A stretch of DNA of 44,083 bases from positions 1 through 44,083 of the forward strand of contig DASUYB010000018.1 in NCBI GenBank assembly GCA_036377595.1, given 5' to 3'. Below are positions 22,998 through 35,725 of the stretch, piece after piece. The DNA comes from Longimicrobium sp. (GTDB lineage Bacteria > Gemmatimonadota > Gemmatimonadetes > Longimicrobiales > Longimicrobiaceae). The notes beneath the pieces were generated by a model. It did not search any database and was not told the DNA's origin. It saw only the letters and a program-made list of their open reading frames with translations. A program made the position numbers and the translations under genes. Numbering within the stretch: position 1 is the first letter of the stretch; each line of letters begins with the position of its first letter.

Positions 22998-24872
22998 TCA
23001 GGTCGCCGCGACCTGCACCTTCGGCGTGGGGAGCTCGGGCTCGGGGGTGAAGTCCTCGCCGGGGTTGATGAAGCGGTCGCTCTCGAGCGCGTACTGGCGG
23101 TCGTGCAGCTCGCGGTAGCGGCCGCGGAGCGCCATCAGCTCGGCGTGCGTGCCGCGCTCCACCACCTCGCCCTTCTCCAGCACCAGGATCTGGTCGGCGC
23201 TGCGGATGGTGGACAGGCGGTGCGCGATGACGAACGCGGTGCGCCCCTGGCGCAGGAGCCGGAGCCCTTCCTGGATCTTGTACTCGCTCTCGCTGTCCAG
23301 GCTCGAAGTGGCCTCGTCGAGGATCAGGATGCGCGGGTCGGCCAGGAGCGCGCGGGCGATGGCGATGCGCTGCCGCTGCCCGCCCGAGAGCTTGATCCCC
23401 CGCTCGCCCACGATGGTGTCGTAGCCCTCGGGGAGGCCGCGGATGAACTCGTCGGCGTTGGCCAGCTCCGCCACCTCCTCGATCTCGGCGCGCGTGGCGT
23501 CGGGCCGCGCGAACCGGATGTTGTCGGCCACGGTGCCGTCGAACAGGAAGTTCTCCTGCAGCACCACGCCCAGTTGCGCGCGGTAGTCGGCCAGCTTCAC
23601 CTCTTCCAGGTCGCGGCCGTCCACCAGCACGCGCCCCCGGGTGGGGCGGTTGAAGGCCATCACCAGGCTGGCCAGCGTGCTCTTTCCCGAGCCGCTGGAG
23701 CCGACCAGCGCCGTGGTCGATCCCGCGGGCGCGTCGACCGTCACCTCGCGCAGCACGGGCTGGCCCTCGTTGTACTCGTACCAGACCTGCTCCAGCCGCA
23801 CGTCGCCGCGGATCACGCCCAGGTGGTCGCGCAGCGCGTCCTCCTGGTCCTCGGTCTTCATCCCCAGGATCTCGCGGATGCGGTCCAGCCCCGCGAACGC
23901 CTCGGTGAGCTGCGTGCCGACGCTGGCGATGGACATCACTGGCGCCGCCAGCACGGCGGTGAAGGCCAGGTAGCTGAACAGGTCGCCCACCGTCATCCGC
24001 CCGCCCAGGATGGCCCGCCCGCCGACCAGGATCACGACCACCGCGACCAGCCCGATCACCACCGTGGCGATGGACTGGACCGACGAGATGCCGGTGATGG
24101 AGCGCGCCACGTTGCGGAACAGCCGGTGCGCGCCGCGGGTGAACACGCGCTGCTCGCGCTTCTCGGTGCTGTACGCCTTCACCACGCGGATCCCGCCCAG
24201 CGTCTCGTTCAGCCGGCCGGTGACCTCGGCGGTGATCTGGCCGCGCTCGCGGAAGATCGGCCGCAGCCGGGTGAAGGTGTAGCCCATCACCGCGCCGAAG
24301 GCGATCAGGATGCCCACGATCCACAGCGTGAGCTGCCAGTTGAGGTACAGCAGCGCGGCCACGGCGAACACGGCGGTGATGGCGCCGCCCACCAGCTGCA
24401 CCAGCCCGGTGCCCACCAGGTTCCGGATCCCCTCCGCGTCGGTCATGATGCGGGAGATGAGGATGCCGGTCTGCGTGGAGTCGTAGTAGCGCACCGGCAG
24501 CCGGGTGATGTGCTCCATCACCCGGCGGCGCATGTCCGTGATGGCGCGCTGCGCCGTGATGCTGATGATCTGTCCGAGCGCGAACGAGCCCGCCGCCTGG
24601 ATGAGCGTGGCGCCGGCCACCGCCAGCGCCAGCGGCACCAGCAGCCGCGTCTCGCCGCCGTCGATCACGCGGTCGATGACGAACTTGGGCGCGGCGGGCA
24701 GCACCAGCCCCGACACGCGGCTCAGCACCGTCAGCAGCAGCCCCAGCGCCAGGTAGCGCCGATGGTGCCACACCAGCCTGCGCGCCTCGCGCCACGCCTC
24801 GGGCGAGCCCATCGCCTTCTTCTTTTTCTTCGCCGTTTCGTCCGTCTTCGTCACGGTCGCCAAGAATGCCAA
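22998..24872 (-). CDS. ABC transporter, MsbA-like fused permease/ATPase
   Basis: 624 residues with a six-helix permease followed by an ATPase domain. Walker A GSSGSGKST, Q-loop in GVVLQENFLFDGTV, signature LSGGQRQRIAIARALL, Walker B ILILDEATSSLD and H-loop AHRLSTI are all intact. Such half-transporters work as homodimers and export lipids or drugs; lipid A flipping (MsbA) is a candidate role. The N-terminus has a Lys run (KTDETAKKKKKAM) before the first helix. GyrA-like codon use, no frame break. It is preceded by a gap with one small possible ORF. The substrate is not visible from the sequence. Confidence 0.92.
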   Translation of the reverse strand: MAFLATVTKTDETAKKKKKAMGSPEAWREARRLVWHHRRYLALGLLLTVLSRVSGLVLPAAPKFVIDRVIDGGETRLLVPLALAVAGATLIQAAGSFALGQIISITAQRAITDMRRRVMEHITRLPVRYYDSTQTGILISRIMTDAEGIRNLVGTGLVQLVGGAITAVFAVAALLYLNWQLTLWIVGILIAFGAVMGYTFTRLRPIFRERGQITAEVTGRLNETLGGIRVVKAYSTEKREQRVFTRGAHRLFRNVARSITGISSVQSIATVVIGLVAVVVILVGGRAILGGRMTVGDLFSYLAFTAVLAAPVMSIASVGTQLTEAFAGLDRIREILGMKTEDQEDALRDHLGVIRGDVRLEQVWYEYNEGQPVLREVTVDAPAGSTTALVGSSGSGKSTLASLVMAFNRPTRGRVLVDGRDLEEVKLADYRAQLGVVLQENFLFDGTVADNIRFARPDATRAEIEEVAELANADEFIRGLPEGYDTIVGERGIKLSGGQRQRIAIARALLADPRILILDEATSSLDSESEYKIQEGLRLLRQGRTAFVIAHRLSTIRSADQILVLEKGEVVERGTHAELMALRGRYRELHDRQYALESDRFINPGEDFTPEPELPTPKVQVAAT

Positions 24873-27045: not shown

Positions 27046-27534
27046 TCAGGCTCGCTGGCGGACGACTTCCTCCACCTCCGCGGCGAACGTCTCGCCGCAG
27101 CACCCCTCGGCCCGCGCGCGGCTCAGCACCTCGCGTCCCACGTCGTCGATGGTGACCTCGGCCAGCACGCCCTCCATGGCCCGGTGCGCGCGGCAGAAGA
27201 TGGGACGCAGCACGTCGCGGATGTTGCCGCCCACGTTGCAGCTACGCGACGGCTCCGACGGGTGCAGCGAGAACAGCTCCTCGTCGTCCTCCACCGCCCG
27301 GTACACATCCAGCAGGGTGATCTCGCCGGGCTCGCGGGCCAGGGTGGCGCCGCCGCCCACGCCGGGCTGCACGCTCACCATCCCCGCGTTGCGCAGCGCG
27401 CCGATGATGCGGCGCACGACCACGGGGTGCGTGTTGACGCTCGACGCCAGGCGCTCCGAGGTCTGCGCCTCGGAGCGCTTCCACGCCATGTAGGCCAGCA
27501 CGTGCACCGCGACCGCGACCCTGCTGCTGATCAT
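27046..27534 (-). CDS. Rrf2 family transcriptional regulator (YwnA-like)
   Basis: 162 residues with the Rrf2 winged helix: AVAVHVLAYMAWKRSEAQTS, recognition region HPVVVRRIIGALRNAGMVSV, and wing QPGVGGGATL. The middle block SRSCNVGGNIRDVLRPIF matches the CxVGxxI segment of YwnA-type members. Cys99, Cys114, Cys145 and Cys146 could sense redox or electrophile stress, but the [2Fe-2S] Cys triad spacing of IscR/NsrR is not seen. It is likely a self-controlled repressor: site C sits 27 bases before its start. Sites A and B carry the same sequence before the alkene reductase and the secreted protein. Confidence 0.9.
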   Translation of the reverse strand: MISSRVAVAVHVLAYMAWKRSEAQTSERLASSVNTHPVVVRRIIGALRNAGMVSVQPGVGGGATLAREPGEITLLDVYRAVEDDEELFSLHPSEPSRSCNVGGNIRDVLRPIFCRAHRAMEGVLAEVTIDDVGREVLSRARAEGCCGETFAAEVEEVVRQRA

Positions 27535-27560: not shown

Positions 27561-27583
27561 GAAACTGTAACCAGATTAGTTGC
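27561..27583. promoter_or_regulatory. Predicted Rrf2 operator, site C (autoregulation)
   Basis: GAAACTGTAACC at 27561 and TTAGTTGC ending at 27583, 27 bases upstream of the Rrf2 start. Same half-site pattern as sites A and B. From 27584 to about 27760 I see no gene. Confidence 0.6.
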
Positions 27584-27793: not shown

Positions 27794-27846
27794 CTCGATG
27801 TGCCGGAGGCCGCGCCGCCGACATCGCATCACCCTGGAGGAATCGC

Positions 27847-28026
27847 ATGAAGAAGCTGACGCTGGATGCGGAGACGCTGGTCGTGGAGACGTTCGAGGCC
27901 AGCGATACGGACGAGTCGCTCGGGACCGTGAAGGGCCAGGAGATGTATGCGTCGAGCCTGCTGACCTGCGAGGACACCAACTGCGGCAAGACCTACTGCA
28001 CCACCCGCTCGCCGTGCGCCTGCTGA
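27847..28026 (+). CDS. Putative RiPP (pinensin-like lanthipeptide) precursor 1
   Basis: 59 residues, preceded by GGAGGAA seven bases before the ATG. The leader MKKLTLDAETLVVETFEAS is followed by ESLGTVKGQ; the pattern L-x-L-D...L-x-V-E-(S/T)-F and GTVxG recalls leaders of the pinensin class of lanthipeptides. The core (from about residue 32) holds Cys41, 46, 51, 57 and 59 and eight Ser/Thr, ending PCAC. Such cores become lanthionine rings through dehydration of Ser/Thr and Cys addition. No LanB, LanC, protease or transporter gene is adjacent, so the enzyme must act from elsewhere, if at all. Assignment rests on the leader pattern only. Confidence 0.7.
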   Translation: MKKLTLDAETLVVETFEASDTDESLGTVKGQEMYASSLLTCEDTNCGKTYCTTRSPCAC

Positions 28027-28252
28027 GCCGCGGCTGACGCGGCGGCGCCCGTCCGCGCATGCCCGGCGGCGCGGACCTCCGGTGCACGGGCGGGCGCCCG
28101 ATCGGCAGTGAAGCCCCATTCCCTGAACGTGACGTGCGGCGCGATGCGCTCAAAAACCGCTCCTCCACCTCACAGTAGACGAAACGCAAGTTGTTGCGTA
28201 AAATGGGAGCATCACTTCGTCGGTTTCGGATCTCTCACTCAAAGGAGACCCC

Positions 28253-28387
28253 ATGAAGATGCTTCGCCTGGACCTGGACAGCCTGTGCGTGGAGTCGTTC
28301 GGCACCGCCGCCGCCGAGGCCCCGATGGCGGAAGTGCCGCCGACCTACGACCGCTCCTGCATCCTCAGCTGCCCGCTCGCCTGCTGA
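28253..28387 (+). CDS. Putative RiPP (pinensin-like) precursor 2
   Basis: 44 residues, with AAAGGAG five bases before the ATG. The leader MKMLRLDLDSLCVESFGT shares L-x-L-D-x-(D/E)-x-L-x-V-E-(S/T)-F with the peptide 227 bases upstream. The tail RSCILSCPLAC has Cys36, Cys40 and Cys44 at a four-residue spacing. The leader also has Cys12. A terminator hairpin follows directly. The two peptides have separate ribosome sites and a 226-base gap, so each may have its own promoter. Both end in Ala-Cys or Cys-Ala-Cys at the C-terminus. Confidence 0.7.
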   Translation: MKMLRLDLDSLCVESFGTAAAEAPMAEVPPTYDRSCILSCPLAC

Positions 28388-31947: not shown

Positions 31948-33666
31948 TCAGCGCTCGGTGGTGATCCAGGCGACGTTCGCGGTGGGCGAGCCGTCGCCGG
32001 CGACGTGGACGGCGCCCCAGAAGACGGACTGCACCTTCACGTCCGGAAAGCGCTGCCGGATCTGCGGCTCCAGCTCGCCCAGGTCCCAGCTCCCCTCCGA
32101 TGCCTTCGCCCCCGTCCCGCTCTGCAGCACGCGGCCGGCGGGGTCGACGAGGAACCAGACGTACTGGCGGCCGGCGGTGCCCTCGCTGGCGATGCGCGGG
32201 TAGCGCGCCGCCAGCTCGCGGCGGATCCACGCCTCGGACTGGCGCATCCCCGCCACCTCGTCGGGCCGGGCAACACCACCGGTGAACGGGGGGCCGGTCT
32301 GCAGCCGGAAGGCGATGGGAAGGGTGAAGCGCACCGGCACCGCGCGCCCATCCTTCGCGGCGGGGCGGAAGCGCATCGCGTTCGTCGCGAAGAGCGCGGG
32401 CTCGCGGAAGCCGTCGTGCGAGGTGGTGGAGACGCGGGCGCTGCGGACCGCGCCGTCCGCGCCGACGATCACGTCCATCGTCACCGATCCCTGCACGCCC
32501 GCGTCGCGCAGGAGCGGGGGATAGGCGCGCTCTAGGATCTGCTGCACCTCGTCGGAGTTGGACAGCGCGGGCTGCCGGTCGACCTCGCGCAGCTCCATCA
32601 CCCGCGAGGTGTCCACCCGCTCCGGCCGCGCGGGGGCGGCGGGGAGCGTCGCGGACGCGCGTTGGGAGACGGCGGGACGCGTCTCGGGCGCTCGGCGGGC
32701 GACGGCGGCGGGAAGCGCCGCCGGTGCGCGGCGGGCGATCAGGGGAACCCTGGGCTGCGTGGGGACGGGGAGCGCGGCGCCGGTCACCGCCGCCAGGGCG
32801 CCGAGCGTGGTCCACGCCAGCACGCGGCGCGCGCGGTCGCGGGGGATTCGAGAGGTCATGGCGTCGATCCTCTGCTCGAGAAAGGAACGGGGTTCCGAGA
32901 AGGCCACCAGCGGCGCGGGCGAGCCGCCGCCCAGCCGTCCGACTTCCAGCAGGAGGCGTCCGTAGGCCAGCACGTCGGCCTCGCCGCGAAGGGTGCGGGC
33001 GTCGCAGTCCACCTCCACCGCCAGCCGCAGCCGCCGCAGCTGCCACCAGAGCGCCGGGCTCCACGGCATCAGCGCGACGGAGACCAGTCCGCCCAGCAGC
33101 AGCCGCGGGTCGCCCGCGCGGACGTGCTCGCGCTCGTGGCGCAGGATCAGGCGCTGCAGCGGCTCCGCCCAGGCCAGCGTCCAGCGCGGCAGCACGATCC
33201 GCGGCCGCACGAAGCCCACGACGGCGGGACCCACCGCGTCCGACACCCACACGCGCTCGCCGGCGACGGTGTCCTGCGCCCACGTCCGCCGCCGCCGCGC
33301 CAGCCGCAGGGCCGCGACGGCGAGGGCGCCCGCGACCGCCGCGCTCGCCATCCCCCACGCCCACGGCAGCATCCCGTCGATCCGCGCGCGGAGCGTCGCC
33401 CCCGCGGCGGGGCGCATCTCCACCGTCGATAGATCGGGATTGGAGATGGGAGACGGCGCCGCACCCGTCATCTCCAGCATCCCCCCACCCGCGAGATTCG
33501 ACGGCGGCGCGGGGAGGACGACGGGGAGCGCGAGCGAGGCCACGATCGCCATCGCCCACACCCAGCGCGTGGGGAGGCGGTGGAGGCGGAGCGCGCGCTC
33601 GGCCGCCAGCGCGGCGAGGCCCGCGAGCGCGGACACGGCCGCAGAGAAGAGCATCCAGGCGGTCAT
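31948..33666 (-). CDS. M56 family membrane peptidase with TonB-like C-terminal domain (BlaR1/MecR1-type)
   Basis: 572 residues. N-terminal transmembrane helices (MTAWMLFSAAVSALAGLAAL) lead to a cytoplasmic metalloprotease with HEREH at 177-181 (LILRHEREHVRAGDP) and the partner region SPALWWQLRRLRLAVEVDCD. The C-terminus is not the penicillin-binding sensor of BlaR1 but ends with a TonB_C-like fold (GSVTMDVIVGADGAVRSARV and onward). M56 proteins sense an envelope signal and cleave a BlaI repressor. The ATG at 33666 overlaps the stop of the BlaI-like gene (ATGA). The signal is unknown; beta-lactam is one guess only. Confidence 0.85.
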   Translation of the reverse strand: MTAWMLFSAAVSALAGLAALAAERALRLHRLPTRWVWAMAIVASLALPVVLPAPPSNLAGGGMLEMTGAAPSPISNPDLSTVEMRPAAGATLRARIDGMLPWAWGMASAAVAGALAVAALRLARRRRTWAQDTVAGERVWVSDAVGPAVVGFVRPRIVLPRWTLAWAEPLQRLILRHEREHVRAGDPRLLLGGLVSVALMPWSPALWWQLRRLRLAVEVDCDARTLRGEADVLAYGRLLLEVGRLGGGSPAPLVAFSEPRSFLEQRIDAMTSRIPRDRARRVLAWTTLGALAAVTGAALPVPTQPRVPLIARRAPAALPAAVARRAPETRPAVSQRASATLPAAPARPERVDTSRVMELREVDRQPALSNSDEVQQILERAYPPLLRDAGVQGSVTMDVIVGADGAVRSARVSTTSHDGFREPALFATNAMRFRPAAKDGRAVPVRFTLPIAFRLQTGPPFTGGVARPDEVAGMRQSEAWIRRELAARYPRIASEGTAGRQYVWFLVDPAGRVLQSGTGAKASEGSWDLGELEPQIRQRFPDVKVQSVFWGAVHVAGDGSPTANVAWITTER

Positions 33667-34040
33667 CCTTCGCCTCCTCCGCGCAGGCGGTCTTCCAGCA
33701 GCTTCTGCATCCGCCGCAGCTCCTCGTCGCTCAGCCCGCGGTCGGACACCAGCTGGGTCAGCAGCAGCTCCGGAGAGTCCTTGAACAGCTTGCGGGTGAT
33801 GCGGCGCAGCACGCTGGTGCCGGCGTCCTGCCGCTCGACCAGCGGGTGGTAGCGGTACGCCTTCCCGGCCTCGGTGTGGCCGACGTACCCCTTCTCCTCG
33901 AGCGTGCGCAGCACCGTGAGCACCGTGGTGTAGGCCAGGTCGTCCGGCAGCCGGTCGCGGACCTCGGCCACCGACGCGCCGCCCAGGTCCCACAGCACGC
34001 CCATCACGTCCAGCTCGCGGTCGGTGAATGCGATCTCCAC
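33663..34040 (-). CDS. BlaI/MecI/CopY family transcriptional repressor
   Basis: 125 residues with the BlaI winged helix: FTDRELDVMGVLWDLGGASV, then AYTTVLTVLRTLEEKGYVGH. The C-terminal helical dimer segment LFKDSPELLLTQLVSDRGLS and a basic tail follow. Start is a GTG at 34040, with GAGGACGG before it. It lies between two M56 genes: 15 bases after the first and overlapping the second by four. The M56 proteases are expected to cleave it when triggered, which releases the operators at 35758 and 35804 and derepresses the operon, including itself. Confidence 0.93.
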   Translation of the reverse strand: MEIAFTDRELDVMGVLWDLGGASVAEVRDRLPDDLAYTTVLTVLRTLEEKGYVGHTEAGKAYRYHPLVERQDAGTSVLRRITRKLFKDSPELLLTQLVSDRGLSDEELRRMQKLLEDRLRGGGEG

Positions 34041-34054
34041 GTCCGTCCTCGTCG

Positions 34055-35725
34055 TCAGGGTGCGGGAGTGCGGGCGTCCGTCACCTTCTCGGGCCCGAAG
34101 TCGAGACGCATCGCGCCTTCGTGGTTCGCGGCTTCGGGGCCAAAGGTGAGCGCGGCGACGATGCTTCGCGCAGCCGGCTCCAACGTGGCCGGCTTGGCGT
34201 AGACTTCCACGTCGCGGGCCCTCCCGTCCGCACCCACCACGTAGCTGATTTCCGCCTGCCCGACCAGGCCGGCCGCGGCCATCTGCGGCGTGTAGAACCG
34301 CTGCATGGCGGCGCGGAGGCTGGCCGCGTCCGGGGCACCCGCCGGCGACGCCACACCTTCCACGCCCGTCACCACCGAGACGCCGGGCGCGCGCGTTCTG
34401 ACGGCGTTCCACGAGCCTTCGCGGTCGGTGCCGCTGGGTACCTGGCGCGACATGGTCATGGTGGACCGATCGTCCCCCGCCGTCTTGAGCTGCACCCACA
34501 CGATGTTCACGCGCGACGGCCCGAGCTCGCCGGCGGGGCGCTTCATCACGTCCACGGAGCGGATGGTGGAGACGGGAATGTCGGCGGTGGCGGCGGCCAG
34601 CGTCTGGCGGTCGTCGCTGCCGGCCAGCTGCTCGTGGCGCAGCACGCCGCCGTCGCTGGAGATGACGAACAGGAGGAGCTCGTTGGCACCCATCCCGTGC
34701 TGCATCACCTGCGGGAAGAAAGTGGCGACGGCAGTCTGCGGCGTCAGCGGCGTGCGGACGAAGCTCATCTCCTCGCCCGGGGCACGGTAGAGCGCGCGCG
34801 AGGTGCCCGCGGAGGGCTGCGTGGGCGCGGGCGTCTCGCAGGCGGCAAAGACGAGCGCGGCGGCGATGGCGCCGAACGCGGCGGCGCTCAGGAACGGACG
34901 GCGTACACGGGGTGCGGTCATGATGCGGATTCTCCGTTCGAGGGACGATACCGGCTCGGCGAACGCCGCCGCGGCCAGCCGGGAATGCACGGTGCGGCGG
35001 CCCACCTCCAGCAGCACCGCGCCATAGGCCAGGACGTCGCGGCGGCGGCGCAGCACGCGGGCGTCGCAGTCCACCTCCACCGCCAGGCGCAGGCGGCGCA
35101 GCTGCCACCACACGGCGGGGTTCCACGGCATCAGCGCGGCCGCCAGCAGCCCCAGGGCAAGGAGACGGGGATCGCCGGCGCGCACGTGCTCCTGCTCGTG
35201 CTCCAGCACCAGCCGGCGCGCCTCGGGGTCGGCGTCCACCGCCCAGCGCGGCAGCACGATGCGGCTGCGCAGGAGGCCCACGACGGCGGGCCCGGTGTCG
35301 CCCGAGACGAGGACGGGCACGCCGTCGACCTCCGTGCGCGGCCAGCGGCGGCGGCGGCGCTCCAGCACCCCGGCCATTCCCGCCAGCGCCAGCGCGACCC
35401 CGGCGGACGATGCGCCCCAGACCACCGCCAGCGGCGCGTCCAGCCGCGCGGCATCGAGCCACGGCTGCTGACGCTTGCGCGGCAGCGACTCCGTCGTCGC
35501 GCTCACCGTCGCCTGCCAGGCGCCGGAGGACGGCGCGGGCGTGGCCGGGCGCATCTGCGGCAGGAAGCGCGTCGCCGCGGGCACGGCCAGGGTGAGCAGC
35601 AGCGCGGCCGCCCACACCCACCGCGTGGCCCGGCCGATGGGGCGGAGCGCGCGCTCCAGCGCCATCGCCCCGAGCCCCAGCAGCACGCCCACCGCCGCGC
35701 AGTACAGCATCCAGTAAGCGATCAT
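34055..35725 (-). CDS. M56 family membrane peptidase, second copy (leads the operon)
   Basis: 556 residues. Same design as the other M56 gene: N-terminal helices, HEQEH at 176-180 (LVLEHEQEHVRAGDP) and PAVWWQLRRLRLAVEVDCDA. The two are paralogues through this part, then differ. The C-terminal part starts with a lipoprotein-like CETPAPTQPSAG, contains a mixed region and ends with a TonB_C-like fold (QAEISYVVGADGRARDVEVY). It is the first gene after the two operators. Weak ribosome site before the ATG at 35725. Having two M56 proteases per one BlaI suggests two input signals, or backup; inferred only. Confidence 0.85.
   Translation of the reverse strand: MIAYWMLYCAAVGVLLGLGAMALERALRPIGRATRWVWAAALLLTLAVPAATRFLPQMRPATPAPSSGAWQATVSATTESLPRKRQQPWLDAARLDAPLAVVWGASSAGVALALAGMAGVLERRRRRWPRTEVDGVPVLVSGDTGPAVVGLLRSRIVLPRWAVDADPEARRLVLEHEQEHVRAGDPRLLALGLLAAALMPWNPAVWWQLRRLRLAVEVDCDARVLRRRRDVLAYGAVLLEVGRRTVHSRLAAAAFAEPVSSLERRIRIMTAPRVRRPFLSAAAFGAIAAALVFAACETPAPTQPSAGTSRALYRAPGEEMSFVRTPLTPQTAVATFFPQVMQHGMGANELLLFVISSDGGVLRHEQLAGSDDRQTLAAATADIPVSTIRSVDVMKRPAGELGPSRVNIVWVQLKTAGDDRSTMTMSRQVPSGTDREGSWNAVRTRAPGVSVVTGVEGVASPAGAPDAASLRAAMQRFYTPQMAAAGLVGQAEISYVVGADGRARDVEVYAKPATLEPAARSIVAALTFGPEAANHEGAMRLDFGPEKVTDARTPAP

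Follow-up and report, generated by a model that had tools for sequence, protein, structure and literature searches.

In the usual layout of class I lanthipeptide loci, the precursor gene lies beside LanB and LanC, and a survey of class I clusters draws attention to a cluster with as many as 10 precursors (PMC7268733). In the pinensin family of Bacteroidota (NF038180), LanB is split into two proteins and LanC is most similar to the cyclase domains of LanM (PMC7268733). The precursors of this family are clustered with the enzymes, and their leader ends in GG. Scattered precursors that combine conserved leaders with variable cores and depend on few enzymes are known from the class II prochlorosins and synechococsins of cyanobacteria (ProcA/ProcM and SyncA/SyncM), which employ a Nif11 leader and a single LanM. 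Up to 83 prochlorosin precursors per genome have been reported, the largest number (PMC10783134), and the prochlorosin synthetase has been described as the only one that is highly promiscuous for diverse cores (PMC10027976). A genome note on Longimicrobium terrae mentions three lanthipeptide clusters identified by antiSMASH (PMC7291104).

The window analyzed here, a 44,083-nucleotide stretch representing a contig of Longimicrobium sp., contains two peptide genes that depart from the class I layout (Table 1). The initial annotation of these genes pointed out good ribosome-binding sites, a common leader stretch (MKKLTLDAETLVVETF in peptide 1 and MKMLRLDLDSLCVESF in peptide 2), tails with five and three Cys, respectively, and the lack of an adjacent enzyme gene, and all these features were confirmed; the leader of peptide 2 contains one extra Cys, and GTVKG is present in peptide 1 only. 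The pair is flanked by a divergently oriented gene for an Rrf2 regulator and a convergent gene for a glucose/sorbosone dehydrogenase (GSDH), and the wider neighborhood, with no apparent RiPP link, encodes a flavin oxidoreductase, a Rieske dioxygenase, Hsp20, M56 sensors, a Cu/Zn superoxide dismutase and YceI. Domain searches did not detect LanB or LanC on the window contig, and neither peptide alone produced a useful match in Pfam, NCBIfam or PHROGs. The M56 sensors are two adjoining BlaR1-type proteases (positions 31948-35722), one of which carries a TonB C-terminal domain, with a BlaI/MecI-like sequence upstream.

Table 1. Features of the window relevant to the two precursor genes
Feature	Position	Strand	Description or basis
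Precursor peptide 1, 59 aa	27847..28026	+	ORF, family member; leader is residues 1-30 with GTVKG at its end; core with 5 Cys
Precursor peptide 2, 44 aa	28253..28387	+	ORF; leader without GTVxG; short core DRSCILSCPLAC obeying the [ST]Cxx[ST]C spacing
Shine-Dalgarno of peptide 1, GGAGG	27836..27840	+	Read from the sequence
Shine-Dalgarno of peptide 2, AAGGAG	28242..28247	+	Read from the sequence
Rrf2 regulator, divergent from peptide 1	27046..27534	-	Pfam Rrf2, 5.6e-35
Block CTGTAACCAGATTAGTT kept in G003, near the Rrf2 start	27565..27581	.	Pairwise intergenic alignment
MsbA-like exporter	22998-24872		ORF

The two peptides are not an isolated pair but members of a genome-wide family of look-alikes. 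Leader profile and alignment searches identified at least 210 genes of this family at 103 sites on 59 contigs of the 7.2-Mb genome, far more than the further leader copies envisaged initially; this tally is a lower bound that joins the profile matches in about 1.07 Mb of DNA with a genome search using the leader alignment, and the assembly (208 contigs, 4.8 % estimated contamination) does not fix some of the distances between the genes. Within the 1.07 Mb, window included, an iterated leader profile delineated 187 precursor ORFs, with 181 matches below 1e-4, compared to no matches at all when the same DNA was reversed or triplet-shuffled. The genome search added 23 places, each of which was found on inspection to contain a Cys-rich ORF, and matched peptide 2 at an E value of 1.2e-13; peptide 1 compared with its own genome yielded 127 matches at E values up to 10. 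Single genes make up 65 of the 103 sites, and the largest arrays include 13, 11 and 10 members. Most of the precursors sit near housekeeping genes, only 12 of the 210 are located no more than 15 kb from a split LanB, and no LanB or LanC relatives were detected near the remaining ones within the flanking DNA examined. Because precursors are likewise spread over many contigs in the related genome G009, where contigs are at least 789 kb long, fragmentation of the assembly does not explain the scatter.

The analysis described below leads us to assign a probability of about 80 % to the reading that the products of the two window genes are precursors with a leader and a core, made for a class I lanthipeptide system of the pinensin type that acts in trans on many substrates. 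The consensus leader of the family, MxKLxLDxDxLxVESFxT...GTVxA, with GTVxG as an alternative ending, differs in this terminal motif from the GG-ending pinensin leader. The pinensin leader model NF038180 matched 39 of 102 family members at E values up to 0.1 (the best at 1.5e-6) and neither of the two window peptides alone; the family leader is probably of the pinensin-like kind proposed initially. The Nif11 family was not listed in the NCBIfam scan of the same 102 members. Cysteine accounts for 0.4 % of leader residues versus 14.3 % of core residues (6.4 Cys per core on average), and no core without Cys was found among the family members examined. Paralogous leaders are on average 46.5 % identical versus 27.9 % for the cores, and clustering of 146 cores at 60 % identity yields 124 groups. 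In 125 non-redundant cores, Cys is placed non-randomly relative to Ser/Thr, at positions +1 (z 19), +5 (z 15.5) and -3 (z 6.9), which corresponds to a core grammar of [ST]C-x2-[ST]C repeats to which peptide 2 conforms. Some cores stand out: two adjoining precursors on contig C83 (L157:5242-6121, approximately 17.2-18.1 kb) have poly-Cys cores (CCCCCCPCCC... and CCVCCCDPCCC...) whose Cys density far exceeds that of all others, and another precursor (L072:7671-8021), with a core of tandemly repeated TQCGGVxTCGxGC units, weakly matches a heterocycloanthracin family model.

LanB and LanC, which the initial annotation suggested seeking elsewhere in the genome, are encoded on other contigs, where two complete enzyme sets were identified. 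The set on C103 consists of two separate LanB proteins, for glutamylation and for elimination, a C-terminally extended LanC, precursors, an ABC exporter, HlyD and an S8 protease, and the one on C98 comprises LanC, an ABC exporter, precursors, an S8 protease, LanB-N and LanB-C. At both loci, as in the pinensin group, LanB is split, with PF04738 and PF14028 residing on separate proteins (L039 5005-8466 and 8450-9478; L040 12400-15141 and 15131-16807), and LanC, detected with PF05147 at 2.9e-51 and 1.4e-43, is closest to LanM cyclase domains (TIGR03897). The zinc motifs of the C103 LanC are WCHG and LCHG, and the second motif of the C98 LanC is LCCG; CCG is the ProcM-type cyclase motif (PMC10027976) and thus a further likeness to the prochlorosins. 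A CCG-type LanC was rejected as a mark of precursor expansion because G007 has one but only a single precursor. The MsbA-like exporter located about 3 kb from the peptides, which the initial annotation pointed out, had to be discarded as a dedicated exporter: its identity to the LanB-locus exporter is as low as 31 %, compared to 55 % between the exporters of the two LanB loci. The genome encodes three C39 peptidases, none of which is at a LanB locus; S8 proteases are.

We propose that the conserved leaders, coming from about 100 genome sites, are read by RRE-type domains that belong to a small number of shared enzymes. Ser/Thr residues of the variable core would then be dehydrated by the glutamylation and elimination subunits of the split LanB, and LanC, with its fused TglI/NGO1945-like domain of RRE fold, would close thioether rings on Cys. 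Leader removal would fall to the S8 subtilase, and export of the product to the ABC exporter, both of which are encoded beside each LanB. The whole family is probably turned into ring-bearing peptides by a few copies of this enzyme set encoded at a distance. A more specific version, which we favor with somewhat less confidence, holds that two enzyme sets modify about 210 substrates from 103 sites, recruited via the LanC-fused RRE, and that the four-residue [ST]C register gives interlocked rings. Dehydration, ring formation, the cleavage point, export, expression and biological role are what we infer.

The putative leader-reading role of LanC derives from its C-terminal extension. In the AlphaFold2 model of the LanC orthologue in L142 (mean pLDDT 76, or 80 for the C-terminal part alone), residues 1-457 adopt the LanC fold and the last 240 residues are similar to TglI (Z 13.2, rmsd 5.7, 211 aligned) and NGO1945 (Z 12.1, rmsd 5.5, 194 aligned); the similarity to the RRE domains of PqqD, TbiB1 and lasso B1 is weaker (Z about 6, rmsd 2-3). 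TglI and NGO1945 are partners of MNIO enzymes, and NGO1945 consists of DUF2063 and an RRE (PMC12452194). The C-terminal domain of the main LanC, encoded on C103, is therefore predicted to fold like these proteins, that is, with an RRE of the leader-binding type, and may read leaders. It shares its fold (Z 12-13) with MNIO partners of the DUF2063-RRE type (HvfC, TglI and NGO1945) but, unlike them, is fused to a lanthionine cyclase. The extension is also present in seven orthologues from related genomes and at loci from Ignavibacteriales and Acidobacteriota, whereas the matches in Adhaeribacter do not reach this domain; the RRE-fused, CHG-type LanC was found in G001, G002, G003, G008, G009, G014 and G015. 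The match of this domain to the MNIO partners TglI and NGO1945 (PMC12452194), combined with Cys-rich cores that are in some cases extreme (the poly-Cys cores of L157), would also fit metal-binding RiPPs, for which a DUF2063/RRE-like domain, known from MNIO and bufferin systems, would deliver the precursor to an iron enzyme, LanC being secondary. However, the operon order is LanB-N, LanB-C, LanC, and a scan of genes at the enzyme loci did not reveal any MNIO; we regard this explanation as very improbable.

Additional evidence for lanthipeptide biosynthesis in trans comes from the distribution of the leader and LanB across 41 genomes (the own genome and 40 relatives). The leader family is represented in 10 of these, with at least 150 members in each of G000, G001 and G003, 84 in G009, 83 in G014, 52 in G015, 21 in G008, 11 in G002, 5 in G020 and 1 in G007, and the genomes in which LanB scored over the cut-off are precisely these 10, the other 31 having no such match. 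Identical leader and LanB sets would be expected by chance about once in 1.1 billion, a figure that shared ancestry weakens. The split runs within one genus (7 genomes with and 3 without LanB and leader); LanC-like genes are more widespread in the 41 genomes, and phylum-wide the leader was detected in 10 of 395 genomes. Furthermore, homologous enzymes are encoded beside leaders of the same type in an Ignavibacteriales MAG and in Adhaeribacter, and the leader is common to precursors adjoining split LanB/LanC in three phyla. The Ignavibacteriales locus (L144:1514-7412) encodes the same split LanB, an extended LanC and a precursor with a core of the TCxxTC type. With leader homologues and both LanB and LanC encoded elsewhere in the genome, the suggestion that this RiPP system is distributed, its precursors being encoded far away from its enzymes, gains support. 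These data also bear on the alternative that the products are unmodified or disulfide-bonded Cys-rich secreted peptides, with the leader serving as an export or folding signal and the link to LanB being historical. Cys-dense, regularly spaced cores would suit disulfides as well, and the location of most precursors near housekeeping genes fits such peptides, but neither the perfect match between leader and LanB occurrence (10 of 41 genomes) nor the shared leader of precursors adjoining split LanB/LanC in three phyla is readily accommodated, and the non-random placement of Ser/Thr relative to Cys would be needless for disulfides; we consider this alternative improbable.

It could also be argued that the enzymes act on none but the few precursors next to the LanB loci and that the scattered ones are relics of duplication or transposition, mostly silent or decaying. 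The scatter itself and the copy number that varies among close relatives (1 in G007 and at least 150 in G000, G001 and G003) are compatible with such decay, as is the absence of the peptides from the GSDH locus of genus mates: eight of them possess the GSDH gene with neither the peptides nor Rrf2 beside it. Conservation at the GSDH gene was accordingly rejected, the synteny being on the other side, with Rrf2 and the Rieske gene in G003. In that genome, peptide 1 has a syntenic, full-length orthologue (71 % identity) within the shared gene order flavin oxidoreductase, CarboxypepD_reg, Rrf2, peptide, Rieske. Over the 59 codons in all, dN and dS are 0.10 and 0.47 in the core and 0.37 and 0.72 in the leader. 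Similar cores are encoded in G009, G008 and G002, with the C-x-D-T-E-C-G motif and the SPCAC ending kept in G009 and G008. Because the core is nearly unchanged in G003 while the leader drifted, and because of the similar cores in relatives, purifying selection appears to act on the peptide 1 core, despite the differences among the cores of paralogues. Not only this conservation in a syntenic position but also the open frames, the lack of any core without Cys and the Shine-Dalgarno motif upstream of 120 of the 144 family genes with an ATG start (83 %, versus 10 % at random positions) speak against decay. Finally, no precursors were found on the LanB/LanC contigs examined in G001, G002 and G008, despite many elsewhere in those genomes, which is hard to reconcile with substrates confined to the enzyme loci. 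The relic explanation hence seems unlikely to us, and the in-trans system remains the preferred reading.

Compared with the known systems, the family probably shares its leader type with the pinensins, and homologous genes exist in Adhaeribacter, but its members, at least 210 in number, are scattered rather than clustered with the enzymes; it resembles the prochlorosins in organization but is unrelated to them in leader and synthetase, with a probable pinensin-type leader, a split LanB and a LanC. With at least 210 members, the family is about 2.5 times the size of the largest described set of this kind that we found (83; PMC10783134). In the literature searched, mostly without subscription papers, we found no report of such an expansion of class I precursors or of a LanC-RRE fusion. 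Almost the entire family escapes tools that seek precursors only in the immediate vicinity of the enzymes. Should the scattered genes encode genuine substrates, a single small enzyme set would accept around 200 distinct cores, and the system would be the class I counterpart of the prochlorosins as well as the largest natural library of lanthipeptides within a single cell. The substrate tolerance of a class I dehydratase would then be directly testable, nature would provide a large collection of core designs in which a spacing rule is apparent, and the question of why bacteria maintain such libraries could be asked in a second case, independent of the prochlorosins.

As for regulation, the adjacency of Rrf2 emphasized in the initial annotation holds and recurs: one of the four Rrf2 genes in the genome is beside peptide 1, another is located approximately 2.5 kb from the C103 LanB, and Rrf2 also adjoins the peptide 1 orthologue in G003. 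The conserved intergenic block (Table 1) is likely the promoter or operator of Rrf2 itself. Because this block lies near the Rrf2 start and no motif is common to the upstream regions (no strong one was detected in 66 first-in-array regions), control of the peptide genes by Rrf2 is suggestive only. A shared promoter motif of the family was rejected given that k-mers enriched upstream of all genes include, in our reading, leader codons of neighboring tandem genes.

In addition to the two sets on C98 and C103, further LanB and LanC-like genes are present on C1 and C145, such that several LanB/LanC types coexist in this genome. One of these, on C1 (L042:7836-9749), is a third LanB-like gene located beside an apparent NRPS and matched by the dehydratase model in parts only. 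The C145 gene (L043:6034-8895) is a 954-residue open frame that combines a kinase-like part with a LanC-like domain downstream of it, an arrangement known from class III/IV synthetases; the 17 kb examined around it did not yield any family precursor. Two relatives encode a different LanB type (L116 and L117; G009:C9:154400-156307 and G008:C322:10802-12712), with much stronger, near full-length matches (E values of about 1e-152 to 1e-154), suggesting a second lanthipeptide pathway in the same genus.
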